From Paenibacillus taiwanensis DSM 18679 (GTDB lineage: Bacteria; Bacillota; Bacilli; Paenibacillales; Paenibacillaceae): 64,000 nt of DNA. The notes below the pieces were generated by a model, which made no database searches, was not told the origin of the DNA, and saw only the letters and a program-made list of their open reading frames with translations. Below are positions 8,571-23,641 of the stretch, one piece after another (the first letter of the stretch is position 1; each line of letters starts with the position of its first letter). The stretch spans positions 282,379 to 346,378 of the forward strand of contig NZ_KE384307.1 in the NCBI RefSeq assembly GCF_000425125.1. The letters run 5' to 3'. Position numbers and translations under genes: made by a program.

Positions 8571-10067
8571 GTGAAAATATCTTTTGTTATTCCTTCGTAT
8601 AACTCGGCTCCTCACTTGGTACAAGGCTTAACTTTTTTAGCGTCACAGCAGCTTGACCAAGAGCTTGAAATGGAAGTGATCGTCGTAGATGACGGCTCGT
8701 CAGATGGAACAAAGGAAGCGGTAGCCTCATTTCACGCACAGTTTCACAATCTTCTTTATCTGTTTCGTCCAAGAGATGAACTGTCGAACCGTGCCAGAGC
8801 AAGAAATATAGGACTAGAGCAGGCGAGTGGCGATCTCATTTGCTTTTTAGATGCAGGTATTGTTGTGCCGTCTACCTTTACAAAAGGGATTGCAGCTCAA
8901 TATGCAACAACAGCATCCGTTACCTCCCGCTTGGTACTGCTGCACGTCATCTATGGTGTACCTTTAGATACGGATAACTCGGGTTTAAGCGCGATTGAAA
9001 ATTTAAATCCCTATAACTTTCAGCAATGGGTGGAACAGAACAAAGACGCCTCCATCTGGCAAGATTATCGTGAGCCTACGTTTAAAATGCTGCGGGATCG
9101 GCTCGATGGCTTGCCTGCTCCGTGGGAATTCGGGTTAGCAGGAGCAATAACGGTACCTGCATCTTTAGCGCGACAAGTAAATGGATTCGATGACACATTT
9201 ATGGGCTGGGGGACAGAGGACATCGAATTTGCGTATCGGCTATATCTTGCTGGGGCATCCTTCCGTGGTGAGAGACAAGCTTACGCGCTTCATCTGCCTC
9301 ATCCCACATCATTAACCGAGCAAAAAATGTTATCTGACCGCAACAACCGTATTCGGATGCACCACAAGCACTACCGCATGGAAACAGAGCTGTTTGTATA
9401 TTATCAAGGACTGCTCATCGGGCCTGTACTCGAAAAAATGCATCAGCTAGACCTCACACACCTATGGCCTGCCAATACAGTTTCAGCGCTAACCCTTAAT
9501 GAGATTAGAAACAAGTATATAAGGGGTACAAGCAGGTCCCTACTACTTGGCATCGAACAGCCAGCTGTCGCAAAAGAACTGAATACCAGTCATCTATTTG
9601 CCCATCGACAAAAGAGCTATGAGCAGTTGACTAAGGAACTGGAAGGACAACAAACGTTCCATCTGATCGGATGTGATACCCCTTTTACAGACCACTTCTT
9701 TGATGTCGTTATTATGACGGATTATATCCGAGTGTTTCACCCTTACATGCAGCGTATGTTGTTGCAGGAATTGCATCGCATTGCTCGGCAGGTGGTTTGG
9801 ATTCATGGGGATGATCATATGCCAGCATGGGCGAGTGAGACGCTGATGGAGCAAAATAAAATTGATGTTCCATCCGTTCTGGCACGTTTTCAGCCGGATA
9901 TTTACATCGTCTCTTCTGGTTTGCGAAAAGGACATTTAAAAGAGCGTAATTATTGGTCATCGATTCAGGACGTGACGGATTTATGCGCTGAATTAAACAT
10001 TCCTATTCATTTGGAAAATATCATAACTGGAACGCAGGCTGTTGGGGAATCGATAGATGTTCATTAA
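8571..10067 (+). CDS. Glycosyltransferase family 2 (GT-A) with methyltransferase-like C-terminal extension
   Basis: 498 residues, GTG start after a GGGGGG-type RBS. The N-terminal ~280 residues are a GT2 domain: SFVIPSYNSAP start, nucleotide-binding VVDDGSSDGT (D40, D41), a FLDAG metal-binding segment, and a GT7C-like acceptor region FMGWGTEDIEFAYRL near 214-228. The C-terminal ~200 residues contain a stretch resembling the post-motif region of SAM methyltransferases (FFDVVIMTDYIRVFHP then LLQELHRIARQVVWI), but no clear SAM-binding glycine motif, so it may be degenerate. It is first in the cluster and probably adds a sugar to the cyclitol or acyl product. Confidence 0.8.
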   Translation: MKISFVIPSYNSAPHLVQGLTFLASQQLDQELEMEVIVVDDGSSDGTKEAVASFHAQFHNLLYLFRPRDELSNRARARNIGLEQASGDLICFLDAGIVVPSTFTKGIAAQYATTASVTSRLVLLHVIYGVPLDTDNSGLSAIENLNPYNFQQWVEQNKDASIWQDYREPTFKMLRDRLDGLPAPWEFGLAGAITVPASLARQVNGFDDTFMGWGTEDIEFAYRLYLAGASFRGERQAYALHLPHPTSLTEQKMLSDRNNRIRMHHKHYRMETELFVYYQGLLIGPVLEKMHQLDLTHLWPANTVSALTLNEIRNKYIRGTSRSLLLGIEQPAVAKELNTSHLFAHRQKSYEQLTKELEGQQTFHLIGCDTPFTDHFFDVVIMTDYIRVFHPYMQRMLLQELHRIARQVVWIHGDDHMPAWASETLMEQNKIDVPSVLARFQPDIYIVSSGLRKGHLKERNYWSSIQDVTDLCAELNIPIHLENIITGTQAVGESIDVH

Positions 10068-10170
10068 AAATGAGTTTGTAGCGAGGGTTACGGTAATTAA
10101 ATGCAAGTTGAGTGACAAAGCGCCAATCTGGTGTGAAATGTTAGCAACCTTATATGAGGGGGATATGTGA
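10057..10170 (+). CDS. Possible 37-aa small protein between GT2 and the first ACP
   Basis: An ATG at 10057 overlaps the end of the glycosyltransferase gene. The frame runs 37 codons and its TGA (10168-10170) directly abuts the ATG of the acyl carrier protein. Its tail contains the ACP's GAGGGGGA ribosome binding site. A TTGGGG precedes the start. Position suggests translational coupling, but the peptide matches nothing I know and it could be chance. Confidence 0.3.
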   Translation: MFIKNEFVARVTVIKCKLSDKAPIWCEMLATLYEGDM

Positions 10171-10437
10171 ATGATAACAAAGGTGGATGGATTAAAAAAC
10201 TTTATTGCAAGCATTTGCCAAGAAAAAATGAATATCGCCATTCCGGAAGTGATTGATACAGAGGGGGCTGTGGAGACGGTATTTCAGCTGGATTCGATCT
10301 CGATGTTTGAGTTAATCGTTAATCTGGAAGATAAGTACGATACCAAAGTGCCCGACGATGATATCGAACGGATTGGACGGATGAATTTACATGAGCTGTG
10401 TAATTATTTCGAAGAGCGGACAGTAGCTCATGGATAA
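10171..10437 (+). CDS. Acyl carrier protein 1 of the cluster
   Basis: An 88-residue acidic helical protein with the phosphopantetheine attachment motif LDSIS (S42), followed by the MFELIVNLEDKYDTKVPDDD helix typical of ACPs. ATG start after GAGGGGGA. It is expected to carry acyl intermediates as thioesters after activation by a housekeeping Sfp-type transferase; none is encoded here. It overlaps the ketosynthase gene by 8 bp, so the two are probably translated together. Confidence 0.9.
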   Translation: MITKVDGLKNFIASICQEKMNIAIPEVIDTEGAVETVFQLDSISMFELIVNLEDKYDTKVPDDDIERIGRMNLHELCNYFEERTVAHG

Positions 10438-11644
10438 ATCCGTAGTCATTACGGGCTTAGGTGTCATTACTCCGTTTGGCAAAGGATTAGAGGCAATTCG
10501 CAGTTACACGTTCGCAGGACGGCACGGCTTCACGGACATTGAGAGCTTCTCAACCGCGCTAAACCATGCAAAGCGAGGCGGCGAATTAAAAGATAGGGAT
10601 CGTACCTTCCGCGCCTTCAGTCGATATTGCATCGACGAAGCATTGGCAATGGCAGGGCTTGATCGAACGAAGAATCAAGAGCTGTTAAAAGACGCCGTCG
10701 TAGCGATCGGTAATGTGGGGGAAGGCATCGGGCTAGAACATTATTATCAGACACAATACAGCAGCGAGACGGGCGCTGAGTTGGGGCTGCAAGCTGCCGT
10801 GGACGTGGATGATCCGCTCATCCGCCAGCGCGATCCTTTCCGCGCGGCAGAAGAGGCGGCAGCGTACATAGGCTCCACAAATGTCCGCATTGCATTTTCC
10901 AACGCCTGCGTAGCATCTGTAAATGCGATTGGCTACGGTTATGAGCAGATCCGAAAAGGCAGAGCCTCGTGTGCACTGGTAGGCGGCATTCATGTTTTGA
11001 ATCCGTTTGTGTTTCACAACTTTGATTCAAACCGTGCGATGGCAAGTGATGTCGTGCGCCCCTTCTCGCTTGAGCGCGACGGCTTATTAATAAGTGACGG
11101 GGCAGCTATGCTCCTGCTGGAGTCACGTGAACGCGCGCGGCAAAGGCAGGCGAGGCCGCTTGCTGAGCTATTAGGCTGGGGTCTAAGCGCAGATGGATTT
11201 CATGTGACGCAGCCGCATCCTGAAGGAAACGGTCTGGCAAGAGCGATGCAGGCTGCTCTACGCAGTGCCCATTTGTCCCCTGCGGACATTGATTATATAA
11301 ATGCGCATGGGACAGGTACGCCGCTGAACGACCGCAGCGAGACAAAAGCCGTCAAGCAGGTATTTGGCAAGGAGGCATACCGTCTTCCTGTCAGCTCCAC
11401 CAAATCAACGACAGGCCATATGCTGGAAGCGACAGGAGCTGTAGAAGCGGTCATTAGCATAGTTGCACTTATGGATCAGCAGATTCCACCGACAGCCAAC
11501 TATGGCACGCCGGACCCTGAGCTGGATCTCGATTACGTGACAGAGGGTGTCAGAGCAGCGCCGCTTCATATGGTTATGTCCAATTCTAGTGCATTTGGCG
11601 GGAACAACTGCTCCTTGATTTTGGGGAAAGGGGAGGTTGGATGA
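10430..11644 (+). CDS. Beta-ketoacyl-ACP synthase (FabF/type II PKS ketosynthase alpha)
   Basis: 404 residues, the normal length for KAS II. The complete catalytic set is present: C160 in SNACVASVN, H293 in NAHGTGTPLND, K325 and H330 in SSTKSTTGH. It condenses an acyl primer with malonyl-ACP. Divergence from housekeeping FabF, the flanking ACP, and a Cys-less partner overlapping by ATGA at its 3' end point to a KS/CLF pair as in aryl-polyene and other type II PKS clusters. Confidence 0.92.
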   Translation: MDKSVVITGLGVITPFGKGLEAIRSYTFAGRHGFTDIESFSTALNHAKRGGELKDRDRTFRAFSRYCIDEALAMAGLDRTKNQELLKDAVVAIGNVGEGIGLEHYYQTQYSSETGAELGLQAAVDVDDPLIRQRDPFRAAEEAAAYIGSTNVRIAFSNACVASVNAIGYGYEQIRKGRASCALVGGIHVLNPFVFHNFDSNRAMASDVVRPFSLERDGLLISDGAAMLLLESRERARQRQARPLAELLGWGLSADGFHVTQPHPEGNGLARAMQAALRSAHLSPADIDYINAHGTGTPLNDRSETKAVKQVFGKEAYRLPVSSTKSTTGHMLEATGAVEAVISIVALMDQQIPPTANYGTPDPELDLDYVTEGVRAAPLHMVMSNSSAFGGNNCSLILGKGEVG

Positions 11645-12348
11645 TTCAGGCACAACGAATTTCAATTTTGAACGGCGAACAGCTAGCAGCGTTCAACACA
11701 CATTATCGAATTACGGGTCTGCATCAACAGACAGGGGTGTTGGAGTTGGCTTCATTAAGAGGTTTTATTCGCTCACCGTTCAGCCCGCTTATTTATACAA
11801 GTGCAACAGAAGTTTCAACACAAGCAGGCCTTACCGAGCCAACGATTTCTGACACGCAAAAAGGCATTATTCTAGGCAGCATGTTTATTGATGCAATGAC
11901 AGAGGAAGAGCAGTGGAAGGATTTGCTGGCTGGCAAAAAAATAAGCCCTATCATGTTTCCGCAGATTGTACCAAGCTCCATTGTTGGTTTTGTAAATAAA
12001 CAATTGTCCATCCAAGGACCGATGACCTGCATAAGTCCTAGCCCAGAGACAGATGGAGCAGGAATTATGTTGCGGCAAGCTGCGGACTGGATTGAAGATG
12101 GTCTTGCGGATATCGTGCTTGTGGTGTTATGCGATGTCCCTTCGCGCCGTGCGAAGCAGTGGGCGCTTGATACAACAACTGGTGTTCATGTGAGCGGAGA
12201 GCTGGCAGGGGGTGTCGTCAGCTGGGTGATGGAGTCTGAGGAGCATGCTGCTAGACGGGGAGCAGCGTCCGTATGTACGGTGCAAGAGTTGTACGATCAG
12301 CTTCAGCCTCCAGGTGGTGTTGGCATGGCCCGACAGTTCTGGACATAA
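11641..12348 (+). CDS. Ketosynthase-like chain-length-factor protein lacking the active-site Cys
   Basis: 235 residues, about half a ketosynthase. It resembles the short ketoacyl-synt_2 (chain-length-factor-like) proteins of aryl-polyene clusters. The region QIVPSSIVGFVNKQLSIQGP corresponds to the KS segment before the nucleophile, but where TACAS is expected the sequence reads SPSPETDGAG, so no Cys is present. It overlaps the ketosynthase by ATGA. It is inferred to be the non-catalytic partner controlling chain length, or possibly a decarboxylase-like primer subunit. Confidence 0.72.
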   Translation: MIQAQRISILNGEQLAAFNTHYRITGLHQQTGVLELASLRGFIRSPFSPLIYTSATEVSTQAGLTEPTISDTQKGIILGSMFIDAMTEEEQWKDLLAGKKISPIMFPQIVPSSIVGFVNKQLSIQGPMTCISPSPETDGAGIMLRQAADWIEDGLADIVLVVLCDVPSRRAKQWALDTTTGVHVSGELAGGVVSWVMESEEHAARRGAASVCTVQELYDQLQPPGGVGMARQFWT

Positions 12349-12364
12349 AGGGGAGTGTTAAGGA

Positions 12365-13813
12365 ATGAAGCTGATGACGCGGCATGATGATCATCCGGCC
12401 ATTCAGGTTGGAAGCTGGACCCAAAGTTATGCGGAATTGCAACGTGCAGTACACGATAAAATGGAGCTGCTGCAATCATTAGACAATAAATCTGGAAAGG
12501 TGGCTCTCGACCTTCCTGATTCAGGTACGTTTTTGGAATGGGCATTGGCTGCATGGGGCAGTGAGCAGTGCATCATGATTCTGGACCAACGCTTAACAGC
12601 AGCAGAAAAAGAAGCGCGTCTGCAACAATATCGGCCCGCAGTTGTCATTGGCTCGGATACAGGGGCGGGAGTGGCACCCACATTTCAAGTGGAGGTTCCT
12701 TATCAAGTTCGTCTTTGTTCCGAGCAGGAAGAAGCACCTGATAGCAACACGCTACAGGAGACGAAGCATCATCAACTGGCGCTTGTTCTTTTTTCTTCGG
12801 GATCAACAGGGATTCCAAAGCTGATCAGACGAGACCGTGCTTCTTTGCTGACGGAATGGTCAAGCTACAGCGAGGAAGAGGGATCTCCGAATGAACATGC
12901 ACGTGTGCTTTGCCTCGTTCCGGTCAGTCATACGTTTGGGCTGGTATCGGCAGTCGTGCATACGTTAAGATGCGGCGGAACGATAGTGTTCCCCGAAATG
13001 ATCAAGCCGCGAGCTATCGTAGATCAGATAGCGGAGCAGTCGATTACACATATGTACGGCGTAGCATTCCATTATCAGCTGCTACTAACCGAACTGGAGC
13101 AGCGCCGACATATGTTGCCTGGCAAGCTTCCGCTTATGTTGTGTTCCGGCGGGCCTCTTCCTGCACAACTGTTGCAGCAATATGAGGACAAGCTGCACGT
13201 TGGCATCGGACAGCAGTATGGTATGAGCGAAGTCGGCTACATTGCCGTGAATTTTCGCGCCTTACATCCAGGCTCCGTTGGCAGCATCGCCAAGCATTTG
13301 TCGTGGATAATTGATGAAGAGCGGCAATTAGGCATTGAACTGCCATGTTCACCTTATGTAACACAGCAGCATAATTGGATTCCTCATCAAGAAGCCTCGT
13401 CTAACCGTGTTCAGCCTGCTGAAGGGATTTTGCTTACGGAGGATTTGGTGTCAATGGATGAGTCTGGTTGTCTTACCATTACGGGACGTGCCAATGATCT
13501 TGTTAGCATCGGCGGTTTAAAAGTAAAAATAACTGAAGTGGAGCATACACTGCGAGGACACCCGGACATCCACGATTGCTGCGTAATAGCTCTTCCCCAC
13601 CCGATTTATGGACATATACTGGAAGCTTTTATCGTATGGGGACCGGAGCGATGGCTGTCTTTTGATCAGCTTACGCAGTGGTTAAAGCAGCACTTGGCGG
13701 ACTACAAAATTCCTCGTAAATTTCGTGTCGTGGAGCATATTCCTACCTCGGCGGCAGGCAAAATTTTAAAAGGACAATTAATGAAGGAGATTGCTTATGA
13801 ACGTTCTCGATGA
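12365..13813 (+). CDS. AMP-dependent acyl/aryl-CoA (ACP) ligase, ANL superfamily
   Basis: 482 residues, ATG start after AAAGGGGAG. Adenylation motifs are in order: LFSSGSTGIPK (about 142-152), the GQQYGMSE core (about 285), the hinge GRANDLVSIGGLKVK (about 378), and the catalytic lysine in SAAGKILKG near the C-terminus. It should activate a carboxylic acid as acyl-AMP and load it onto one of the two ACPs. In aryl-polyene clusters the equivalent ligase supplies the primer. The next gene (ACP2) overlaps it, which suggests ACP2 is the acceptor. Confidence 0.88.
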   Translation: MKLMTRHDDHPAIQVGSWTQSYAELQRAVHDKMELLQSLDNKSGKVALDLPDSGTFLEWALAAWGSEQCIMILDQRLTAAEKEARLQQYRPAVVIGSDTGAGVAPTFQVEVPYQVRLCSEQEEAPDSNTLQETKHHQLALVLFSSGSTGIPKLIRRDRASLLTEWSSYSEEEGSPNEHARVLCLVPVSHTFGLVSAVVHTLRCGGTIVFPEMIKPRAIVDQIAEQSITHMYGVAFHYQLLLTELEQRRHMLPGKLPLMLCSGGPLPAQLLQQYEDKLHVGIGQQYGMSEVGYIAVNFRALHPGSVGSIAKHLSWIIDEERQLGIELPCSPYVTQQHNWIPHQEASSNRVQPAEGILLTEDLVSMDESGCLTITGRANDLVSIGGLKVKITEVEHTLRGHPDIHDCCVIALPHPIYGHILEAFIVWGPERWLSFDQLTQWLKQHLADYKIPRKFRVVEHIPTSAAGKILKGQLMKEIAYERSR

Positions 13814-14042
13814 GATCAGACAGATGGTGACGGAGTCCGATTTGTTTTCGAGCTTGGATCAGGAATTAGGAGCAGATGACCCCATTCATTTGGATTCGAT
13901 GTCCTTAATTTGGCTGATCACCAAAATAGAAGAACGTTATTCGATTCAAATTGATTACCGCACAGAAAATCTCGCTTATTTTGAAAGCATGCAGTCAATT
14001 TCCACCTATATCGATCTTAGGCTAAGAGGTGTTGAAACATGA
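13797..14042 (+). CDS. Acyl carrier protein 2 of the cluster
   Basis: 81 residues from the ATG at 13797, chosen over a TTG at 13791 because AAGGAG lies at 13784-13789. The phosphopantetheine motif is LDSMS (S34), followed by the LIWLITKIEERYSIQID helix. It overlaps the 3' end of the ligase gene and is coupled to the next gene by ATGA. Two ACPs in one small cluster suggest one for priming and one for elongation, as in aryl-polyene clusters. Confidence 0.88.
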   Translation: MNVLDEIRQMVTESDLFSSLDQELGADDPIHLDSMSLIWLITKIEERYSIQIDYRTENLAYFESMQSISTYIDLRLRGVET

Positions 14043-14887
14043 AGTGGACGATGACAACCGTTTCTTTTCGTTATCATTTGCACTCGTTTGCTGACCTGAT
14101 GAAGTTTGCGGCGGATGCTGGCTTTCAAGGGATCGAGCTGTGGGAGCCTCATTGGATTCGGCACTCTGAGGCCATCCTCGCCTATGTTCAAGCCCACAAG
14201 CGGGATGCGATTCCGATCCGTGTCTTAAGCGGGTATCAAGACTTGACTGACCTGACACAACCTGTGCAGCAATGGCAGCAGCAGCTCAGACATAAATTAG
14301 AGGTGTGTCAGCAGCTAAACATTCCTGTACTGCGCCTGTTTACAGGTCAAATGTCAAGCGCGGAGGCAAACGATGATGTCTGGCGAGCGTGGCTGGATCG
14401 TCTGGATACGCTTGAACTCATGGCTCGTGACAGACAGGTACAGGTTGTATTCGAAACGCATCCCGGTACGCTGCTGGATCAGCCGGATGCTGTAGATCGC
14501 TTCGTGAAGGCTGTCACAACGAGAAGGTGGCAGCAGATCGGCCTTAATTTCGACGTATACCATGTTTGGGAATTCGGTGTTGATCCACTCGACTATATGC
14601 AGCGCTGGTTTTCGGCCGTTAAACATATTCATCTCAAAAATGCGAGCAAACGGACGTCGCAGTTTATATTTGGAAACGTGTATCACCCAGCGGGTAATTA
14701 TTCGGACTTGACCGAGCTTCAGCAAGGCCAAATTGACATCCTGCCGATTATGCAGTACGCCTCTGACAGCGGATATCACGGAGCAGTAACGTTAGAGTGG
14801 TTTGGTCTGCCCTCTTGTGAGCAATATCAGCGCGAGCTGGCTTATTTGGGACAAGTTCAACTCCCTGTCAAGCAGGTGCTCTTATGA
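14039..14887 (+). CDS. Sugar phosphate isomerase/epimerase (IolI/IolE-like TIM barrel)
   Basis: 282 residues of the xylose-isomerase-like TIM-barrel family (AP_endonuc_2). Likely metal ligands lie on successive strand ends: E139 (VVFETHPG), D172/H175 (NFDVYHVWEFG), H206/H208 (VKHIHLKNA) and E263 (VTLEWFG). Relatives act on inosose, keto-sugars and hydroxypyruvate. In this cluster it could rearrange or dehydrate the cyclitol ketone, or supply a modified sugar. The substrate cannot be read from sequence. ATGA coupling on both sides places it firmly inside the operon. Confidence 0.8.
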   Translation: MKWTMTTVSFRYHLHSFADLMKFAADAGFQGIELWEPHWIRHSEAILAYVQAHKRDAIPIRVLSGYQDLTDLTQPVQQWQQQLRHKLEVCQQLNIPVLRLFTGQMSSAEANDDVWRAWLDRLDTLELMARDRQVQVVFETHPGTLLDQPDAVDRFVKAVTTRRWQQIGLNFDVYHVWEFGVDPLDYMQRWFSAVKHIHLKNASKRTSQFIFGNVYHPAGNYSDLTELQQGQIDILPIMQYASDSGYHGAVTLEWFGLPSCEQYQRELAYLGQVQLPVKQVLL

Positions 14888-15312
14888 CGGAAGTGTTATC
14901 CGTTCTGCCTCATCGCAGCCCGTTCCTGTTCGTTGATCGGGTCGTAGAATGTGTTCCAGGGGTGATGGCTAGAGGATATAAACAGATCACCATCAATGAA
15001 TGGTTTTTTGCTGGACACTTTCCTGATGACCCGATTATGCCTGGCGTGCTGATGACAGAAGCGATTGCACAGCTATCGGCTTTTGCTGCTTCACCTCATG
15101 AGGGAGGGGCGCGGCGCGGTATGATTGCGTCGGTTGGCCGTACCAAGTATGCAGGTATAGTGAAGCCAGGTGACCGTTTGGATCTCTACTTCGAGATCGT
15201 GACACAGAAAGGCGCATTTACGAAAGGGAACGGAACAGCTTCTGTCGAGGGAAAAGTTATGGTTACGGTGGAGGACTTGATCATCTATACCGAGAAGGGG
15301 GAGAGTCCATGA
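14884..15312 (+). CDS. FabZ-like 3-hydroxyacyl-ACP dehydratase (hotdog fold)
   Basis: 142 residues, close to housekeeping FabZ length. It begins with the LPHRSPFLFVDRV signature. The catalytic pair is H45 in AGHFPDDPIMPG and E59 in LMTEA. It should dehydrate beta-hydroxyacyl-ACP to trans-2-enoyl-ACP. With no enoyl reductase in the cluster, repeated rounds would leave a conjugated polyene. No ketoreductase is encoded, so FabG of primary metabolism is presumably shared. ATGA overlaps on both sides. Confidence 0.9.
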   Translation: MTEVLSVLPHRSPFLFVDRVVECVPGVMARGYKQITINEWFFAGHFPDDPIMPGVLMTEAIAQLSAFAASPHEGGARRGMIASVGRTKYAGIVKPGDRLDLYFEIVTQKGAFTKGNGTASVEGKVMVTVEDLIIYTEKGESP

Positions 15313-16550
15313 AAGTGCTGCTTGTGACTAGCAACTGGACGGAGACGTTGGGCCACGTAGTACGTGGCATTGCTATCGCCGAACAACTATTAAAACAAGG
15401 CCATCAGGCAGCCTTTTTATGCCCAAAGTCATATCGGGAGCTGCTACCACAGCAGGCAGCTTGGTATGAATCGGCACCTAAGCCGAGCTTCACGAACAAA
15501 AATTATTTTGGCCTGCACACGTACGAAGACATTTTGTTCGCCTCGGGCCATACTGAACCGCAGCAAATCAGATGTACCGTGGAGCGAGAACGTGAAGTGA
15601 TACGGGAATATGTACCGGATATTATTTTGAACGACGAGCAGTTCACGATTGGAATATCGGCCAGTTTGGAGCATGTGCCTGTCGCTTCAATAGTAACGTG
15701 GCCGCTACATCCCAACTTCCGCTCACCACAGGAGCCGGACATCCCGCTTCGGGATATGATGCTGCGCCGACTGCGCAGCAGTTGGAATCAAGTGCTGGCA
15801 CAATACGAATTGCAGCCAGTTGCGCATTTAAGCGAGCTGTTATTTCATCGCAGCTCATTGCTTATCGCACCAACAAGTCCATCCTTGGAGCCAGAGCTTG
15901 CTCATCAGGAGACACGTGTACATTACGTCGGGCCTCTAGCCCCGCAAGGCAAATTTGCCGAAGTCCCACCTTGGATGGACGCCCTCCATCATCCAAGCTC
16001 TGAACGAGCAACTGTATTTATTTACTTGTCCTCTCTCCCGTTTGGCATGAATACGATCGACAGCTTTGAGCTGCTAGCTGACAGCTATCGGGGGACTAAC
16101 ATACAAGCTGTTTTTGGCATCGGTAAATTTAATGAGGCTACAGAACAGCAGTTGCGACGATTGGAAGGGCCTAATTTACGCTTTGAGCGATTTGTGCCTG
16201 GTGAAGCGATGATGGCACGAGCCCAGTTGGCGATATTTCCAGGCACACACAGTATGATGGTGTCGGCAGCCAAGTACGGGGTGCCGTGTCTATTGTTTCC
16301 TGACTTTTTCGAAAGAGCGTACAACGCCAGTTGTCTGGAACGGGTGGGTCTTGGCTTCATTTGTGAAGCGGATGGCTTAACGAGTGAACGTATCCGCGAG
16401 CTATCACAGCAGCTCATATCCTCTCGTGGTGAGCATACGCGTGCGCTACAAGTGCAAGTCGAGTTAAATGCGCTCGGAGGGGCAAGCAAGGCTGTCGCAC
16501 ATCTGGATACGTTTGTTCAGGAACAGCACGTTAGCAGCCATTTCGGATAA
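15309..16550 (+). CDS. GT1-type (UGT/MGT-like, GT-B) glycosyltransferase
   Basis: 413 residues. The N-terminus MKVLLVTSNWTETLGHVVRG has the nucleotide-loop and candidate general-base His (H16) of macrolide-type glycosyltransferases. The C-terminal donor domain contains RFVPGEAMMARAQLAIFPGT followed by AAKYGVPCLLFPDFFERAYN, equivalent to the HGG...GvP..v.P.. signature, with PGTHS replacing HGG. It is likely the second sugar-adding step in the pathway, using an NDP-sugar. No sugar-nucleotide genes are present nearby. Confidence 0.82.
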   Translation: MKVLLVTSNWTETLGHVVRGIAIAEQLLKQGHQAAFLCPKSYRELLPQQAAWYESAPKPSFTNKNYFGLHTYEDILFASGHTEPQQIRCTVEREREVIREYVPDIILNDEQFTIGISASLEHVPVASIVTWPLHPNFRSPQEPDIPLRDMMLRRLRSSWNQVLAQYELQPVAHLSELLFHRSSLLIAPTSPSLEPELAHQETRVHYVGPLAPQGKFAEVPPWMDALHHPSSERATVFIYLSSLPFGMNTIDSFELLADSYRGTNIQAVFGIGKFNEATEQQLRRLEGPNLRFERFVPGEAMMARAQLAIFPGTHSMMVSAAKYGVPCLLFPDFFERAYNASCLERVGLGFICEADGLTSERIRELSQQLISSRGEHTRALQVQVELNALGGASKAVAHLDTFVQEQHVSSHFG

Positions 16551-16564
16551 AAGGAGCGCAAGAC

Positions 16565-17521
16565 ATGAATCTGGTGACGACCTATAACTGTGTCATTGCT
16601 ACAATCTACAATTATTTAACACACGTACAGAAACTTGAATTTGAACTGGAAGCACTTATTTTTAGCCCACCCTTTTTTAAACTGGTTACTTCATACGATG
16701 GCTTTTTAACATCCGCGCCATTTGAGGAAGTTGTGACGCCTTTTTTGCAGCGTGCCGATTGCCGCATGGTGTTTCCGGATGTAAGCAGTCCGCAGACAGC
16801 TATCGCGTATGCGCATGAGCATTTACGCACGAAGGGCATCGTACCAGTAGCTATTAATTTGCGCTATGATGTGCTCGAACCGCTGCCCTTCGACAACGAT
16901 GCATGGCACATTCATATCATCGTTGACCGAGAAGGGACGGGCAGGTTCAAAATGTACGACCAGTTCGAGGATAAATATTATGTAGTGGATGAACAACATC
17001 TGATGAAGGCGATCGATACGCCGTTTAACTATAGAAATTCAGGACAATTTACACCATTTATGCAGATGGAAGTGAACGATAGGGAAGCTACACAGCGTAA
17101 GCTTGTGACCGGCAGTAGTGGACTGTCCAGCTTGCGGCACGCTGTCGAGCATTATCCGCTGCACATCAATTTGCATATGGGAAGTATGTTTTTTGACGGT
17201 ATATCCCGGTACGCGGTGGAAAGACCTAAAGATTCTGACATTTATAAGCTGATGAACTATCCCCATATTATTTGTAAAAGTCGTCATTTTGTTGCCGAGT
17301 ATGTGAAGCGCTCTATAGGAGGCAATCTGACAGGAATGGGCGGAGTGGAGCAGTTGCAGAGCGGCTGGGAAAGGTTTCGCCGACTGCTTGGTATGGCTTT
17401 GCATCGCCAAGAACGTGAGGCGTTCACTCGTTTAACCAAACAATACGAGCAATTAATATACCTCGAACTACATTGTCTGCAGGAGGTTATGAGCCAATAT
17501 GAAGCTAGTATCGACGTATAA
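16565..17521 (+). CDS. BtrH-like papain/C39-fold acyltransferase candidate, paralogue 1 (intact triad)
   Basis: 318 residues, the first of three tandem paralogues sharing the opening TYNC, the block INLRYDVL.P.PFDND and the block IDTPFNYRNSGQFTPFMQ. A Cys-His-Asp arrangement like BtrH N-terminal and C39 peptidase folds is visible: C9 near the N-terminus, H117 in WHIHIIVD and D132 in MYDQF. BtrH of butirosin biosynthesis moves an acyl group from an ACP to an aminoglycoside. Given the ACPs and aminocyclitol enzymes here, an ACP-to-amine acyl transfer is a reasonable inference. The family assignment rests on motif spacing, not an alignment. Confidence 0.55.
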   Translation: MNLVTTYNCVIATIYNYLTHVQKLEFELEALIFSPPFFKLVTSYDGFLTSAPFEEVVTPFLQRADCRMVFPDVSSPQTAIAYAHEHLRTKGIVPVAINLRYDVLEPLPFDNDAWHIHIIVDREGTGRFKMYDQFEDKYYVVDEQHLMKAIDTPFNYRNSGQFTPFMQMEVNDREATQRKLVTGSSGLSSLRHAVEHYPLHINLHMGSMFFDGISRYAVERPKDSDIYKLMNYPHIICKSRHFVAEYVKRSIGGNLTGMGGVEQLQSGWERFRRLLGMALHRQEREAFTRLTKQYEQLIYLELHCLQEVMSQYEASIDV

Positions 17522-18461
17522 TTGCATACTCGCCAGCGTGTATAACTACATCACTCAAGCGTATCCCCTTTCCTTTCAACTGGAGACGCTGCTCTTTAAC
17601 CCTGACTTCCTAAAGCTTCAGCATTTGTATACGAAGCTGCTGCTGTCTCATCCCTATGATGTGTCCAAACGATTTGTGACGGAGATCGGGGGGACGATTG
17701 AATTTCCGAATGTACGCGATGTAGCAGGCGCGGTGGCATATGCGGATACGCATTTGCAGCATACTGGCGTGCTGCCAATCGCTATTAATTTGAAGTATTC
17801 TGTGCTTGATCCCGCACCTTTTGATAATGATTTTTGGAATTTTCAAATGGTAGTGGAGCGGAGCGACGAGCAGCATTTTATCATGTTTGATATGTTTCAT
17901 GGGACAAAATATACCGTTAATATGCATCATTTCTCCAATATGATCGATACACCGTTTAACTATCGTAATGAAGGGGAATTCACGCCCTTTATGATCATCC
18001 ACATTCCTGATGTTGAGCATACTCGGCACTTGCTCTTGCAAACGAACATAACAGATCGTTTGCTGGGTGCGTTGCAGGCTTACTCACCCGCGCACAATCT
18101 GGCTGAGGGCTGCGCCTTTATCGAATATATTCGGAACGCTTTCTTGAAGGAGGAAGTAACCGATCTTCATGATGAGGTGTATCGAATTATGGGCTTTCAA
18201 ATTATTATTTCCAAGAGCAGAGAGCAATTGCTGAACAGCGCAGCAGCTATCGGCATTCCAATCACAGAGGAAGATCGTGAACTTGTGAAATGGTGGGAGA
18301 CGTTCAGGCTCCAACTTGCAATGACAATCAACAGGCGCGAGGCAGAAGGATACGAGCATTTACTCTGGATGTATCGCGATCTGAATCGTCATGAGACGCT
18401 TGTTGTTGAGCGATTGGAGCAGCAAATTGTGCTGATGCAGACAAAGGGGGCTGCACAGTGA
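17499..18461 (+). CDS. BtrH-like paralogue 2, catalytic His position lost
   Basis: 320 residues, overlapping paralogue 1 by 23 bp, with AGGAGG upstream. It keeps C9 (TYNCILASVYNYI) and D131 (IMFDMF), but the segment equal to WHIHIIV reads WNFQMVV, so Gln116 stands where the His should be. The block IDTPFNYRNEGEFTPFM is well conserved. It is either catalytically impaired, with a scaffold or acceptor-binding role, or uses a different mechanism. The ~150-residue C-terminal helical half is also shared with its neighbours. Confidence 0.55.
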   Translation: MKLVSTYNCILASVYNYITQAYPLSFQLETLLFNPDFLKLQHLYTKLLLSHPYDVSKRFVTEIGGTIEFPNVRDVAGAVAYADTHLQHTGVLPIAINLKYSVLDPAPFDNDFWNFQMVVERSDEQHFIMFDMFHGTKYTVNMHHFSNMIDTPFNYRNEGEFTPFMIIHIPDVEHTRHLLLQTNITDRLLGALQAYSPAHNLAEGCAFIEYIRNAFLKEEVTDLHDEVYRIMGFQIIISKSREQLLNSAAAIGIPITEEDRELVKWWETFRLQLAMTINRREAEGYEHLLWMYRDLNRHETLVVERLEQQIVLMQTKGAAQ

Positions 18462-19415
18462 ATGACACTCACACATGCTTATAATTGTGTGTCCGCAGCT
18501 GTGTATAACATGCTCGTTGTGAACTATAAATTCCGGTTTCCTTTTGAGCTGATGAGTATGTCCTCTTCCTTTTTTGAGCTGTTTGTTGATAAGGGACGGT
18601 TAAGCTGCGGTTCTCCCATTCATCGTGCTAACGATTTTCTGGTGCAATTCGGCACACGTATTTACTACCCCGATATGTTAGACGTGAACGGAGCAATCGC
18701 CTACGCGCAGCACTATTTAGACCGACGGGGCGTCCTGCCGCTATCGATTAATTTGAAATATGATACGGCATCACCCAAGACGTTTGACGATGATCACTGG
18801 CATTTTCATCTATTAGTGCGTAAGTCGGAACAAAATAAATTTATGATCTTTAATTTATTTAATGGCGATTATTATGAGGTTTGCGAAGCACACCTGGCCA
18901 AGCTGATCGATACCGCATTTAATTACCGCTATGCGCAGCAATTTACACCTTTTATGCAGTTGGAACTGGAAAATTATGAGCTGGCACAGGCTGTGCTTGG
19001 ACGTGACAATGACAGAGTTGACATGCTCCGACACGTGCTGAAACATTACCCGCTTGAATCCAATCTGGATGAGGGCCGTGACTATTTACAAGCGTTGACT
19101 GCGTATATTCATTCGGGTGAACGCCAGCTCCATTATGAGCATCAAGTGCTGGATTACCAGCGCATCGTGACGCGCAGCAGGGAGTTGGTTCGGAATTATC
19201 TCTGGTCCTGTGATGAGGGAGAGTCAAGTAATACCGCATTTCAGACTGTTGTGCAAGAATGGGATGCTTTCCGCAATAAATTGGCAATGGCTTTAATGCG
19301 GAGAAGCAGCACGGATATGGCTGCCTTGCAGGGGCATTACGAACAGTTGATTCAGTTGGAATACAACACGTTAAGCAATGTCATCACCCTAGTTGAGGCT
19401 GCAAAAACAAGATAA
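18462..19415 (+). CDS. BtrH-like paralogue 3, Asp replaced by Asn
   Basis: 317 residues, ATG immediately after the stop of paralogue 2, RBS AAAGGGGG. It keeps C9 (AYNCVSAAVYN) and H116 (WHFHLLVR), but the third triad position is Asn131 (IFNLF), as in papain-type Cys-His-Asn enzymes, so it may still be active. It shares IDTAFNYRYAQQFTPFMQ. Three consecutive diverged copies suggest a heteromeric complex or separate acylations at different positions. Confidence 0.55.
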   Translation: MTLTHAYNCVSAAVYNMLVVNYKFRFPFELMSMSSSFFELFVDKGRLSCGSPIHRANDFLVQFGTRIYYPDMLDVNGAIAYAQHYLDRRGVLPLSINLKYDTASPKTFDDDHWHFHLLVRKSEQNKFMIFNLFNGDYYEVCEAHLAKLIDTAFNYRYAQQFTPFMQLELENYELAQAVLGRDNDRVDMLRHVLKHYPLESNLDEGRDYLQALTAYIHSGERQLHYEHQVLDYQRIVTRSRELVRNYLWSCDEGESSNTAFQTVVQEWDAFRNKLAMALMRRSSTDMAALQGHYEQLIQLEYNTLSNVITLVEAAKTR

Positions 19416-19443
19416 GCATTTATACACGAAGGGAGCGCTTCTA

Positions 19444-20418
19444 TTGCCAGTCATTCAAGTGGACAACTTGTTTAAAAAATACGATAAAGCACCGTTTCCG
19501 GCGGTTCGCAATCTGTCTTTTCAGGTGGAGCAAGGGGAAATATTTGGTCTGCTCGGCCCAAACGGCGCAGGAAAAAGTACGACCTTTAAAATGTTGACCA
19601 CGCTGCTCGAACCGACGGAAGGTTCCATACTTATTTTAAATCGGGATACGATGACTTCACAGAAAGCGATTCGAGAGCATATCGGTTATGTTTCTCAGAT
19701 TGGTGGACACGATCATCAATTAACAGCGTATGAGAACTTGCGTTGGATCAGCAAGCTGTATCACATCCCACGCAAGCAAATGAACGACAGAATTATGGAA
19801 GTGCTGGACTATGTCCATCTACTGGAAGTGAAGGATAACTTGCTAATGACCTTCTCGGGAGGGATGAGACGGCGTTTTGAGATCGCGACAGCTTTGCTGC
19901 ATCATCCGAAAATATTGTTTCTGGATGAGCCTTCCTCCGGCTTGGACGTAGAGCATCGTTATCAATTGTGGCATGTGCTGGAGCGGCTCAAAAGGGAGCA
20001 GAACATGACTGTATTTCTAACTACGCATTACTTGGAGGAAGCCGATCGCCTATGCGACCGAGTCATGATTATTCAAGAAGGCCAATGTGTATGTCTAGGT
20101 GAGCCTGAACAGCTCAAGCAAGAAGTAGGCGGCGACCAAATTTATATTACAGTGGCAGAACATTCGTCAGTGATTACGGAAGAAGAACTGCACAGTAAAC
20201 TGCTGGAGGCGCATGAGCAGCTGGTTATAAAACGAATTCAACTAAATGAGGCCTGTACGGAGCTGCGTTTCTGGGTTGATCAGGGTCACCGTCAGGTTAC
20301 GCCGATTCTCGATTTGTTAAGCCATTATGACGTACAGATCACCTCGGTACGTGTCACGCAGCCGACGTTGGATGACGTTATGCTGCAATATACACAAAGG
20401 AGTATTCAATATGCTTAA
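19444..20418 (+). CDS. ABC transporter ATPase (DrrA-like drug/natural product exporter)
   Basis: 324 residues from the TTG at 19444, preferred over an upstream TTG inside the previous gene because GGGAG lies at 19431-19435. Walker A (GPNGAGKST), signature FSGGMRRRFEIA, Walker B ILFLDEPSSGLD and the switch His (LTTHYLEE) are all intact. The C-terminal ~90 residues match the DrrA-type extension ending in QPTLDDVML. It pairs with the ABC-2 permease that overlaps it by 8 bp. Likely role: export of, and self-protection against, the cluster product. Confidence 0.92.
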   Translation: MPVIQVDNLFKKYDKAPFPAVRNLSFQVEQGEIFGLLGPNGAGKSTTFKMLTTLLEPTEGSILILNRDTMTSQKAIREHIGYVSQIGGHDHQLTAYENLRWISKLYHIPRKQMNDRIMEVLDYVHLLEVKDNLLMTFSGGMRRRFEIATALLHHPKILFLDEPSSGLDVEHRYQLWHVLERLKREQNMTVFLTTHYLEEADRLCDRVMIIQEGQCVCLGEPEQLKQEVGGDQIYITVAEHSSVITEEELHSKLLEAHEQLVIKRIQLNEACTELRFWVDQGHRQVTPILDLLSHYDVQITSVRVTQPTLDDVMLQYTQRSIQYA

Positions 20419-21208
20419 TTGGAAATGGCTTTGGTTTGATTTTAGCGGCATCTTTTGGCGGAGCCATGCTCAATTGGTCAAGCTGCCGATATACTTGCTG
20501 ACCAGCATTGCGACACCTTTAATCTGGCTCTTGCTGTTCAGCCAAATTTTTCAGCCTGTCATTCATACCGGACAGTTTAGTGAGTTTGGGGACAATTATT
20601 TGTTGTTTTTTGCACCAGGCGTTGTGGTTATGACCACTTTGTTTGGCGCAGGGTGGTCGGGTATGGGAGTGCTGGCTGATATCTCGACAGGTGTCATTGA
20701 GAAAATTATTTCGACGCCGTCGAACCGTTCAGCCGTTATTTTAGGCAAACTTTCTCATCAGGCTATGGTTATTATTATGCAAGCCGTTATTGTAATGGTC
20801 ATTGCGATATTGATGGGCGCGCAAGGAAGCTTAAATATCGGTACAGCGCTAGGCATTGCTGGATTCGGTTATTTAATGTCGATTGGTATTGCGGCCATCT
20901 CGTATGGTGTTGCACTGCTAGTGCGCCATACGGACAGTATGATGGTCGTCGTAAATTTATCGCTAATGCCGATGCAGTTTTTATCCAGTACGATGATGCC
21001 GATGAGCTCTTTGCCAAAATGGATTCAAGTGGTGTCCTATTTTAATCCGGTTGATTGGTATGTCGTTGTTGTCCGTACGTTATGGCTGAAAGGATGGGAA
21101 TGGGACATTTTGCTTCGACCAGGCTTATGTATATTCGGTTTATCGATTGCAGGTATGATCTTCTGCTCGTATGTGTTTAATCGGGCGTTAAGCGGAGATT
21201 GGAGGTAG
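20411..21208 (+). CDS. ABC-2 type permease (DrrB-like)
   Basis: 265 residues from the ATG at 20411, with AAAGGAG just upstream; longer starts would lie inside the ATPase. About six membrane segments are visible. A conserved ABC-2 stretch lies in the middle (GVIEKIISTPSNRSAVILGK), and LMPMQFLSSTMMPMSSLPKW precedes the last helices. It is the membrane partner of the DrrA-like ATPase. It is followed 5 bp later by the cyclitol synthase gene. Confidence 0.9.
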   Translation: MLNWKWLWFDFSGIFWRSHAQLVKLPIYLLTSIATPLIWLLLFSQIFQPVIHTGQFSEFGDNYLLFFAPGVVVMTTLFGAGWSGMGVLADISTGVIEKIISTPSNRSAVILGKLSHQAMVIIMQAVIVMVIAILMGAQGSLNIGTALGIAGFGYLMSIGIAAISYGVALLVRHTDSMMVVVNLSLMPMQFLSSTMMPMSSLPKWIQVVSYFNPVDWYVVVVRTLWLKGWEWDILLRPGLCIFGLSIAGMIFCSYVFNRALSGDWR

Positions 21209-21213
21209 CTGAT

Positions 21214-22353
21214 ATGACACATAAAGTGCGAACGATCCAATTTGGTTCATATCAATATGACTTTTGGTATGGCAAGCATGTGATTTCACAGCTGTCCTCA
21301 TGGTTTGCGAAACAGGACACGATGCCAAGCAGCTTTGTTCTAATTGCAGATACAGGCATACCGCCGCGTATATTGGAAGAAACCAGCATGGAGTTGGGGC
21401 GGGTCGGGAATGTGCATGTGCTCAGATTTGAGCCTGGCGAGGAGCACAAAAATTTGGCGACCGTCGCGCAGTTGTGCGAGCAAGTGATAGGCCTTGGCGC
21501 AGATCGGCGCACCGTTATGGTGGCGGTTGGTGGTGGTGTTACCGGGAATATCGCGGGCATGGTAGCGGGGATGTTGTTCCGCGGCTTGCCGTTAATTCAT
21601 GTGCCAACAACGTTAATGGCCGCGTCTGATTCGGTGCTGTCTTTAAAACAGGCTGTCAATTTGTCTAGCGGCAAAAATCTAGTCGGTTTTTATTACGCAC
21701 CGCGCATTGTATGTGTAGAACTGGGCTACATTACAAGCTTGCCTGTCCGCGAAATACGAGCGGGTCTGTGTGAAGTAGTCAAAAACATATTAACGATTGC
21801 GCCAGAGGAGAGCGAACGGTTTAAGGCTATCTTTCGGTCAGACCATCACTATCATACAAGCGAGTTAGGGGACATTATCGATTTTTGTATTCGGGCTAAA
21901 AGTACCGTGATGCGCGAAGATCCGTTTGAGAAAAAAAGCGGTCTTATTTTGGAGTATGGGCATACGATCGGGCATGCGCTGGAACTAGCTTCGAAGGGGC
22001 AATACAATCACGGTGAAAGTGTTGCCTTTGGCATGCTGTGTGCGGCCCGAATTGCAGAGAAGTTGGGACTGCTAAGTCGAGAGGCGGTTAATCTGCACTA
22101 CGAGCTGTTAAATCAGATTGGTGCTTGGATTCAGCCAAGTCAGGAACTGCTGCCTGCTATTGAGCACATTTTACATTCCGACAACAAGCGGGGCTATCGT
22201 CAGAATCGCACTGGTTATACGGGCATGGTGCTGTTGCAAGGACTAGGTCAACCAGCAATGCAGCACGAATCCTACATTACGTTAGTACCAAATGAGCTTA
22301 TTCATGAAGTTATGCAAGAACAAATTCGATTGAAGCAAAGTGTGGTGAGTTGA
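21214..22353 (+). CDS. 2-deoxy-scyllo-inosose synthase (BtrC-like, dehydroquinate-synthase fold)
   Basis: 379 residues from ATG 21214 (GGAGG at 21201-21205). The NAD-binding block AVGGGVTGNIAGMVAGM (from about 104), the following HVPTTLMAASDSVLSLKQA and SSGKNLVGFYYAPR closely follow what I recall of BtrC of butirosin biosynthesis. Expected zinc ligands are E197 (GLCEVVKN), H250 (EYGHTIGH) and H266 (NHGESVAF). The enzyme converts glucose-6-phosphate to 2-deoxy-scyllo-inosose, the committed step to 2-deoxystreptamine aminoglycosides. A housekeeping AroB is less likely because the context is aminocyclitol-specific and the SLKQAVNLSSGKN segment is DOI-synthase-like. Related C7-cyclitol synthases remain a minor alternative. 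Confidence 0.88.
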   Translation: MTHKVRTIQFGSYQYDFWYGKHVISQLSSWFAKQDTMPSSFVLIADTGIPPRILEETSMELGRVGNVHVLRFEPGEEHKNLATVAQLCEQVIGLGADRRTVMVAVGGGVTGNIAGMVAGMLFRGLPLIHVPTTLMAASDSVLSLKQAVNLSSGKNLVGFYYAPRIVCVELGYITSLPVREIRAGLCEVVKNILTIAPEESERFKAIFRSDHHYHTSELGDIIDFCIRAKSTVMREDPFEKKSGLILEYGHTIGHALELASKGQYNHGESVAFGMLCAARIAEKLGLLSREAVNLHYELLNQIGAWIQPSQELLPAIEHILHSDNKRGYRQNRTGYTGMVLLQGLGQPAMQHESYITLVPNELIHEVMQEQIRLKQSVVS

Positions 22354-22354
22354 C

Positions 22355-23641
22355 ATGGTGGCACCTATTCGAACCAAAAGCTGGCCAACCTGGCCAATGG
22401 CAGACGAGGCTACTCGGCAAGAACTGCTCGATGTGCTTGACGGCGGCAGGTGGGCGATCAGCGGTGCTTATATGGGCAGGGAGTCGAAGGAGCAGCAGTT
22501 TGCCGCTGCCTTCGCCCAATACAATCGTATTGAGCATTGTCTGACGCTGGATCACGGTACTTCTGCCCTAATTGCTGCCTTGGAGGCGCTTGAGATCGGT
22601 TATGGGGATGAAGTGATCGTGCCTGGCTTGACCTGGATTGCCCCTGCTGTTGCTGTTTTATCGGTTAATGCAATTCCGATTATCGTTGACATTGAAGCAG
22701 ACACATTTTGTATGAGTCCTGATAGGGTGCGCGAAGCCATTACTCCGCGGACAAAGGCGATTCTTCCTATTCATATGTATGGCAGCATGGTAGACATGGA
22801 CGCGATTATGGAGATCGCTGCCCAATACAATCTGTATGTGATTGAAGACTGCGCTCACAGTCATGGGTCCATCTGGCGCGGCCAACGGGCAGGCACGATC
22901 GGCGATATAGGCGCATTCTCGATGCAGCAGGGCAAGGTGCTAACCTGCGGCGAAGGGGGTGCGGCCATTACGAAGGACGCAAAAATATTAGCCAAGATGG
23001 AGGCGTCCGCTTGGAACGCACGGACCAAGCTGCCGGATGCAGAGCTGAGGCTTGGGGCGATGCAGTTAAGCGAGACAGGCGGCCGCTTTGGCACTAACCG
23101 CTGCTTGTCGGAGTTTCAAGCTGCGATTTTGCTGGCGCAGCTTCGCAAGCTCGATGACCACCACGATATCCGCGCAAGTAATGTGCGTTATCTTCATGCA
23201 CATTTGCGTGAGATTCCAGGTGTGCTCACGATGCGCACACAGCCACAAGTTGATCGACAATCCTATTATGGATTTGTCGTAAAAATCGAGGCTGATGTCT
23301 TCGGCAGCACAGCCAGCCAGACGATTCTCAACTTGCAGCACATGCTTGGCTTAGGCGCTTACTATTTGCATGAACCTTATATTCCGCTGCATCGTAATCC
23401 GCTCTACAAGCCACATCCCACGCGGCACAAGTTGGGAGAGCCCTACACGAGCGCACTGTGCACAGAGCGCTTTAGGCTTCCGCAATGTGATGCGGCTTAC
23501 GATTGTGGCATCGTATTTCATCATGCTGTGCTGCTTGGAGATACAGAGGACATGGAGCACATTGTAGAGGCGTTTCGTGTGCTGTACCGATATGGGAAGG
23601 AAGGCCTATTAACCGACAAGTGTATTCATAGTTTACAATAG
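22355..23641 (+). CDS. L-glutamine:(2-deoxy-)scyllo-inosose aminotransferase (BtrR/StsC-like, DegT family)
   Basis: 428 residues, one base after the cyclitol synthase stop. It is a PLP-dependent DegT/DnrJ/EryC1/StrS aminotransferase: catalytic Lys194 in SMQQGKVLTCGEGG, PLP-ring Asp165 in VIEDCAHSHG. The N-terminal SWPTWPMAD and RWAISGAYMGRESKEQQFA are characteristic of inosose aminotransferases. Predicted reaction: transamination of 2-deoxy-scyllo-inosose to 2-deoxy-scyllo-inosamine. In butirosin the same enzyme also does the second transamination after a dehydrogenase. No such dehydrogenase is visible here. Last gene of the cluster. Confidence 0.88.
   Translation: MVAPIRTKSWPTWPMADEATRQELLDVLDGGRWAISGAYMGRESKEQQFAAAFAQYNRIEHCLTLDHGTSALIAALEALEIGYGDEVIVPGLTWIAPAVAVLSVNAIPIIVDIEADTFCMSPDRVREAITPRTKAILPIHMYGSMVDMDAIMEIAAQYNLYVIEDCAHSHGSIWRGQRAGTIGDIGAFSMQQGKVLTCGEGGAAITKDAKILAKMEASAWNARTKLPDAELRLGAMQLSETGGRFGTNRCLSEFQAAILLAQLRKLDDHHDIRASNVRYLHAHLREIPGVLTMRTQPQVDRQSYYGFVVKIEADVFGSTASQTILNLQHMLGLGAYYLHEPYIPLHRNPLYKPHPTRHKLGEPYTSALCTERFRLPQCDAAYDCGIVFHHAVLLGDTEDMEHIVEAFRVLYRYGKEGLLTDKCIHSLQ

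Follow-up and report, generated by a model that had tools for sequence, protein, structure and literature searches.

A Paenibacillus taiwanensis gene cluster that probably makes an aryl-acyl amide of 2-deoxy-scyllo-inosamine

2-Deoxy-scyllo-inosose (DOI) synthase (DOIS) is the hallmark of the 2-deoxystreptamine aminoglycosides, the clusters of which carry a second oxidation step performed by BtrN or by a dehydrogenase. In the butirosin (btr) pathway, BtrH transfers an acyl group from a carrier protein to a ring amine. Aryl polyene clusters are laid out with an aryl starter ligase, acyl carrier proteins (ACPs), a ketosynthase (KS) and a full-length chain-length factor (CLF), a dehydratase and a ketoreductase, and AsbF converts 3-dehydroshikimate to 3,4-dihydroxybenzoate (protocatechuate). 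The latter compound is described as feeding the synthesis of the siderophore petrobactin (PMC9324987). In cispentacin biosynthesis, the AmcF-AmcG pair is reported to add one C2 unit and then to cyclise, AmcG being the proposed cyclisation factor (CYF), with FabD and FabI recruited from fatty-acid synthesis (PMC10698177). Hygromycin A is composed of an aminocyclitol, a cinnamic-type acid and a sugar, and is presented as a scaffold that binds the ribosome and acts selectively on the Lyme spirochete (PMC10949010). The present analysis concerns a gene cluster at positions 8571-23641 of a window, that is a stretch of 64,000 nucleotides (G000:C2:282379-346378), within the 5.2-Mb genome of Paenibacillus taiwanensis DSM 18679. 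On balance, this locus probably directs the synthesis of an aryl-acyl amide of 2-deoxy-scyllo-inosamine, likely glycosylated and exported, with a hygromycin A-like scaffold, all steps of the pathway being inferred from family, motif and fold.

The cyclitol pair is, by its sequences, of the DOIS/BtrR type. Among solved structures, the cyclase scores 363 bits with BtrC (2d2x) and 136 bits with the best 3-dehydroquinate synthase, and the best relative of the aminotransferase is BtrR (2c7t, 417 bits). The active-site columns of BtrC Lys141 and Glu243 (SLKQAV and LEYGHT) are kept together with the DNKRGY motif in the cyclases of all six loci found to have a DOIS gene, as is the pyridoxal phosphate-lysine motif SMQQGK of their aminotransferases. 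In an 11-row tree, three cluster cyclases (from the window, Paenibacillus sp. ACRRX and G296) and four butirosin-like Paenibacillus rows split from four AroB-like rows with support of 100/100, and the cluster DOIS group is separate from the butirosin-like one (90/100), the DOIS of the window being 47-49% identical to the enzymes of the butirosin-like loci. Butirosin-type neighbours (BtrH, ACP, ATP-grasp and GGACT) were checked in one of the four butirosin-like loci of the tree, L008. An AroB-like housekeeping origin of the cyclase was rejected on bit scores, tree and active-site columns, and the genome has a separate AroB-like match on another contig, with Asn at the Glu column (LNLGHT). The earlier note on this DNA had proposed a BtrC-like DOIS with a BtrR/StsC-like aminotransferase and a phylogenetic check against housekeeping AroB; the proposal is borne out, the cyclase grouping with DOIS, away from the AroB-like rows.

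The likeness to butirosin extends to the predicted transfer of a carrier-bound acyl group to a ring amine. However, BtrN-like, ATP-grasp and decarboxylase side-chain genes were not found in the locus, where the acyl group would instead come from an aryl ligase and a KS. As no BtrN-like or dehydrogenase gene for a second oxidation was matched by Pfam among the open reading frames (ORFs) scanned in the locus, the rest of the genome not having been searched, the ring would carry one amine. DOIS would here sit in a small type II polyketide synthase-like aryl pathway rather than in a 2-deoxystreptamine pathway.

The source of the acyl group is suggested by a TIM-barrel gene (14039-14887) that is absent from the gene list of the earlier note. 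Its product matches AsbF (3dx5) with 111.5 bits in the PDB, the next relative, an IolE chain, reaching 30 bits. The active centre of AsbF, as given in PMC9324987, comprises Tyr70, Arg102, Glu142, His144, Asp172, His175, His198, Lys200, Phe211, Tyr217 and Glu253, and all 11 residues are identical in the TIM-barrel protein (HMMER alignment to 3dx5, read by eye). A role like that of IolE or hydroxypyruvate isomerase was weaker than AsbF, the iolE score being 50 bits for a cut-off of 290. The genome harbors a petrobactin-type locus elsewhere (L030, G000:C1:655-662 kb), with two IucA/IucC genes and AsbC-, AsbD-, AsbE- (DUF6005) and AsbF-like genes. With only 31% identity between the AsbF of that locus and the protein of the window, the latter looks like a separate, dedicated enzyme. 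Among 19 genomes of the genus, DUF6005 is matched in nine, one of the matches being a fragment with stops.

With such an AsbF-like enzyme encoded, protocatechuate (as the 3,4-dihydroxybenzoyl group) is the likely starter for the neighbouring AMP ligase and the second ACP, ACP2. The PDB relatives of the ligase include feruloyl-CoA synthetase and aryl-AMP ligases. The locus resembles petrobactin asbC-asbF in joining an AsbF-like dehydratase, a ligase, a carrier protein and a transferase, but its ligase is 26% identical to the genome's own AsbC and elongation genes are added; kinship of that genome's AsbE (DUF6005) with the acyltransferase-like proteins a, b and c, considered below, was rejected, as it aligns significantly to none of them.

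Elongation of this starter would depend on a KS with intact Cys-His-His motifs (NACVAS, NAHGT and GHMLEATG) and on a CLF-like partner of 235 residues that has the N-terminal Pfam domain alone, without the C-terminal KS half. The fold matches of a predicted model of this partner are ketosynthases, the first being an actinorhodin KS/CLF entry (E 1e-7, TM-score by query length 0.50). ACP2 scores 13 bits in Pfam for a cut-off of 20.8 (E 0.12), yet its LDS serine motif is kept, and the dehydratase keeps GHFPxxPxxPG and EAxxQ in all eight loci described below. The combination of a KS and a shortened partner with an adenylating loader and an ACP recalls the AmcF-AmcG system (PMC10698177). The two proteins nevertheless fall under the cut-offs of the NCBIfam models (KS with AmcF, 223 bits for 325; partner with AmcG, a weak 21.6 bits for 80), the dehydratase retains FabZ motifs, the starter differs and ring closure is not expected.

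An aryl-polyene-like set had been claimed for these genes, and its members are indeed present: an aryl starter ligase, ACPs, KS, CLF-like protein and FabZ-like dehydratase. Neither a ketoreductase nor a full-length CLF was found by Pfam among the ORFs scanned in 8571-28564, and cyclitol genes are added. With the CLF truncated, no ketoreductase found and an AsbF-like gene pointing to a dihydroxybenzoyl starter, the label is too loose, and a single elongation to a dihydroxycinnamoyl group is as probable as a polyene, or more so. The product class put forward in the earlier note, an acylated, glycosylated 2-deoxy-inosamine, stays the best one, the polyenoyl chain that it had entertained being no likelier than the dihydroxycinnamoyl group.

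Release of the acyl group is predicted for protein a, probably with b, both encoded within a set of three tandem paralogous genes, a, b and c. These had been called BtrH-like, but the BtrH_N model (PF14399) matches none of them up to E 10, whereas BtrH from the butirosin-like locus L008 reaches 41.5 bits; kinship of the latter with a is marginal (BLASTP, E 6e-4 within a set of nine). The three are placed as acyltransferase-like proteins by fold instead, one of them being predicted to share that of CtaG (closthioamide) and CcbD/LmbD (lincosamides) over the full length, with the Cys and His present. Those enzymes are described or proposed to bring a carrier-bound acyl group to an amine, as is predicted here. 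Identity is about 11%, and here, in contrast, His-type and Asn-type paralogues are paired. Protein b has Asn at column 115 in all six DOIS loci, the catalytic His being absent, and in an acyltransferase tree of 41 rows the Asn and His rows split with support of 98/97. This tree left out P0006 and P0009-P0012, which are copies of included rows, and the fragment P0036; families outside the VIA-align list were not counted as excluded. In protein c, Asn replaces Asp at column 132. Among the 41 rows, its clade consists of the window, ACRRX and P0007 only, the first two both having the ABC pair and DOIS. The tree places the G431 acyltransferase with the Asn-type rows rather than with c. Far outside Paenibacillus, a metagenome-assembled Verrucomicrobia genome (P0028/P0031, 43322-base contig) encodes a His-type/Asn-type pair of this family.

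Related loci were collected through DOIS or acyltransferase genes, and acyltransferase presence in each is partly due to this selection. Eight are considered: the window, ACRRX (G014), G296, G446, G396, G404, G431 and G434. A profile search at E 1e-10 found members in 7 of 392 genomes of the order, window and ACRRX included, and in 3 of 388 of the family, and a single-protein search in 3 of 394. In ACRRX, 18/18 genes, regulators included, are present with the same flanks at 77-99.6% identity. In G296 the core is in the same order (KS 59%, ligase 46%, AsbF-like protein 44%, DOIS 54% and aminotransferase 56% identical), but a GT5/GT4-type glycosyltransferase replaces the GT1 enzyme, a major facilitator superfamily (MFS) pump replaces the ABC pair, and c has no counterpart; its b protein is 100% identical to one of Paenibacillus cellulosilyticus. 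G446 (P. athensensis, judging from an identical protein), G396 and G404 all have both ACPs, KS, CLF, ligase, AsbF-like gene, dehydratase, a, b, DOIS and aminotransferase, the G396 CLF being known from a separate search and not used in the locus protein comparison. Gene order differs in G396 and G404, and upstream in G396 lie an MFS pump and a LuxR-type response regulator, this locus having a Glycos_transf_1-type glycosyltransferase; no exporter was identified for G446. The GT2 protein is 86% identical in ACRRX and 40% in G296; in the stretches fetched from G446, G396 and G404 it is unmatched at E 1e-4.

The two remaining loci, G431 and G434, contain two GT2 genes, ACPs, KS, CLF, ligase, dehydratase, GT1, an ABC pair with ATPases about 50% identical to that of the window, and one Asn-type protein; DOIS, aminotransferase, AsbF-like gene and His-type protein were not found in their fetched stretches. 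These four genes are therefore present together in 6/8 loci, the AsbF-like gene being found in exactly those with DOIS, and absent together from 2/8. Such co-occurrence supports a single product, and is suggestive of an AsbF-derived acyl group joined to the aminocyclitol by the His-type enzyme. That the genes act as one unit, as the earlier note had supposed, is supported as far as conservation shows, the core recurring in six loci. As a set, the eight loci could serve to link gene exchange (glycosyltransferase, exporter, presence of DOIS) to changes of product.

Six distant KS/CLF/ligase loci (L059-L064), outside the eight counted, have no match to DOIS, aminotransferase or a/b/c in their fetched stretches. 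Five of them (L059, L060, L062, L063 and L064) are cassettes of KS, shortened CLF and ligase in genomes of the family, with KS about 41-42% and CLF and ligase 29-35% identical. L061 (G072:C9:52000-68000) encodes AsbC-like and AsbF-like proteins, KS, a truncated CLF-like protein (255 aa), ACP, ligase and glycosyltransferases, with no DOIS match; by eye, one of its proteins is PabAB-like and another resembles BtrH. In Paenibacillus sp. HGH0039 (NZ_KE150412.1), a butirosin-like DOIS locus (L007) and a DOIS-less sister cluster (L094) occur together, about 115-125 kb apart on the assumption that the contig is numbered identically in the two sources.

Taken in order, the proposed pathway would begin with DOIS and the aminotransferase converting glucose 6-phosphate to 2-deoxy-scyllo-inosamine. 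In parallel, the AsbF-like enzyme would form 3,4-dihydroxybenzoate from 3-dehydroshikimate, and the ligase would load it on ACP2. KS and its truncated CLF/CYF-like partner would condense this starter with malonyl-ACP1, probably once, after which FabG borrowed from fatty-acid synthesis would reduce the product and the FabZ-like enzyme dehydrate it to a dihydroxycinnamoyl-type (caffeoyl) thioester. The His-type papain-fold enzyme, probably with its Asn-type partner, would take up the acyl group on its Cys and pass it to the aminocyclitol amine, before glycosyltransferases attach a sugar and the ABC-2 pump exports the compound. The caffeoyl-deoxyinosamine core so predicted would be C15H19NO7, with a neutral mass near 325.12 before any sugars.

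The predicted three-part layout, aminocyclitol, cinnamic-type acid and sugar, is that of hygromycin A from Streptomyces hygroscopicus. The ring of that compound is proposed to derive from myo-inositol (Hyg18, Hyg25, Hyg17 and Hyg8) and bears a methylenedioxy bridge (PMC10949010), whereas a DOIS would here give a deoxy ring; none of the ORFs scanned at the locus matches PF01408, expected of a Hyg18/Hyg17-type inositol route, and DOIS is present instead. With another phylum and other ring enzymes, the likeness would be one of convergence, not of membership. If the predicted product is correct, a compound like hygromycin A is made by Gram-positive bacteria through convergence. By membership tests on its genes, the locus is outside the butirosin, aryl polyene, cispentacin and hygromycin A types, and no description of such a cluster or product was found among the papers listed in searches of the open literature. 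More tentatively, and with considerable doubt, these loci may represent a new antibiotic scaffold family, glycosylated dihydroxycinnamoyl 2-deoxy-scyllo-inosamine amides that reproduce the layout of hygromycin A by an entirely separate route, in which a shortened KS/CYF pair acts on a protocatechuoyl starter and a His-type enzyme with an Asn-type pseudo-enzyme forms a two-subunit amide synthase, the whole having travelled through the Paenibacillus order with changes of tailoring. The paired His-type/Asn-type amide-synthase-like proteins offer a testable enzyme arrangement.

Several observations weigh against the amide just described. The enzyme activities and the product are predictions, and the eight loci span five genera and thus few independent lineages. 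The substrate of the ligase cannot be read from its sequence, its distance from AsbC adds to the doubt, and BLASTP aligns ACP1, without ACP2, to AsbD. The AsbF-like gene beside the KS/CLF set of L061, which is without DOIS, indicates that this gene is not bound to aminocyclitol synthesis. Because ketoreductase, malonyltransferase and thioesterase were not found in the locus, help from fatty-acid synthesis must be assumed; the CLF-like model is of low confidence (pLDDT 65.6), and by analogy with cispentacin the KS/partner pair may form a ring; the starter may undergo one elongation, several, or ring closure. Where an aryl polyene variant is concerned, in which KS/CLF would elongate the 3,4-dihydroxybenzoyl starter repeatedly and a polyenoyl chain be placed on the aminocyclitol, the KS, CLF-like, FabZ-like and ligase proteins fit a type II system of the highly reducing or aryl polyene kind as these families are generally laid out, and the dehydratase motifs are kept. 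It is nonetheless unlikely, given that the partner is truncated, that AmcF-AmcG, with AmcG likewise shortened, is described as adding one C2 unit, and that the ORFs scanned in the locus include no ketoreductase or thioesterase. The amide linkage itself rests on the CtaG/CcbD fold match at its low identity, the same fold includes AziU3/U2, and a sequence profile of a/b/c finds no credible relative among PDB sequences (best E 0.063). The papain-fold proteins might therefore perform a cyclisation or hydrolyse the thioester (compare AziU3/U2), or KS/CYF might close a ring, the acyl group and aminocyclitol then being joined otherwise or released as two co-products. This appears quite unlikely, as neither an AsbF-like gene nor a His-type protein was found in the two of the eight loci without DOIS and aminotransferase, which suggests one product, and as the best two fold matches are enzymes described as forming, or proposed to form, amides from carrier-bound acyl groups.

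Also bearing on the preferred amide, protein c has no assigned step in the pathway, and the ring may be a diamine, the BtrN-like search having covered the locus only. Three acyltransferase-like proteins could place more than one catechol, and 3,4-dihydroxybenzoate serves petrobactin (PMC9324987), both of which would suit a catecholate siderophore with an iron-binding, AsbF-derived catechol and the aminocyclitol as scaffold; since the strain already has its petrobactin-type locus, and since the ORFs scanned in the locus include no siderophore uptake gene, exporters of the ABC-2 type or, in related loci, of the MFS type being present instead, such a siderophore is improbable. Hardly credible is an ordinary butirosin-like aminoglycoside cluster with unrelated neighbours. 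A pair of DOIS and BtrR-type proteins and a BtrH protein do occur in butirosin-like loci, but the DOIS identity and separate tree group given above, the failure to find BtrN-like or butirosin side-chain genes in the locus and the conservation of the KS/CLF/AsbF set with the pair across families all speak against it.

The features are listed in Table 1. The 16 plus-strand ORFs that fill 8571-23641 bear out the contiguous, mostly overlapping unit of the earlier note, with a gap of 103 bases after the first (GT2) and otherwise overlaps or spacings of about 25 bases at most; the two glycosyltransferases and the DrrAB-type exporter that it had named are present by Pfam. Pfam families at the locus are GT2, PP-binding (ACP1), ketoacyl-synt N and C (KS), ketoacyl-synt N alone (CLF), AMP-binding, FabA/FabZ, EryCIII-like glycosyltransferase, ABC and ABC-2, DHQ_synthase-type cyclase and DegT aminotransferase. 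As promoter-like matches (22, for 25.6 +/- 5.2 in shuffles) show no excess and terminator-like ones (19, for 14.3 +/- 3.6) a slight one, operon structure rests on gene spacing.

Table 1. Genes of the cluster and its probable regulators, in window coordinates.
Feature	Position	Strand	Basis
GT2-type glycosyltransferase, C-terminal region unassigned	8571..10067	+	PF00535, PF02709
ACP1, adjoins ketosynthase	10171..10437	+	PF00550; LDS motif; 8/8 loci
Ketosynthase, Cys-His-His	10430..11644	+	PF00109+PF02801; 8/8 loci
Truncated CLF/CYF-like partner, 235 aa	11641..12348	+	N-terminal ketoacyl-synt half only; 8/8 loci
AMP-dependent aryl/acyl ligase, predicted ACP2 loader	12365..13813	+	PF00501+PF13193; 8/8 loci
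ACP2, gene overlaps ligase gene	13797..14042	+	LDS motif in alignment; 8/8 loci
AsbF-like 3-dehydroshikimate dehydratase (TIM barrel), predicted protocatechuate maker	14039..14887	+	AsbF 3dx5 best PDB match
FabZ/FabA-type dehydratase	14884..15312	+	PF07977, 103 bits
GT1 (MGT-like) glycosyltransferase	15309..16550	+	PF06722; MGT subfamily 71 bits, cut-off 260
Acyltransferase a (His-type), predicted carrier-protein-dependent amide synthase	16565..17521	+	
Acyltransferase-like b (Asn-type), probable partner without His	17499..18461	+	Asn at column 115
Acyltransferase c, His-type third paralogue	18462..19415	+	Cys9, His115, Asn132
DrrA-like ABC ATPase, start codon uncertain	19393..20418	+	PF00005; DrrA1-3_C 25.2 bits, just under cut-off 27.4
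DrrB-like ABC-2 permease	20411..21208	+	PF01061, 86 bits
2-Deoxy-scyllo-inosose synthase	21199..22353	+	BtrC 363 bits; motifs; tree
L-glutamine:2-deoxy-scyllo-inosose-type aminotransferase	22355..23641	+	BtrR 417 bits; PLP-lysine motif
Response regulator, probable cluster regulator	23918..24496	+	PF00072 and weak helix-turn-helix; 94% identity beside ACRRX cluster
Histidine kinase, probable cluster regulator	24757..26061	+	PF02518

The response regulator and histidine kinase (23918-26061), separated from the aminotransferase by 276 bases, probably belong to the cluster, judging from their neighbourhood and distribution: at E <= 1e-40, the kinase is matched in two of the 19 genus genomes, the same two that have DOIS. 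The C-terminal region of the GT2 protein (residues ~330-498), without Pfam match, looks by eye like a degenerate methyltransferase. Upstream of the cluster lie an Eco57I-type restriction-modification methylase (window 1540-3231) and an Mrr-like restriction endonuclease (6046-6783). Downstream, 28688-30300 holds a T-box leader (Rfam RF00230, 95.4 bits) followed by a tyrosyl-tRNA synthetase gene (28909-30300); a role of the latter as a spare self-resistance copy was rejected, since it is the single match in the genome and looks ordinary.

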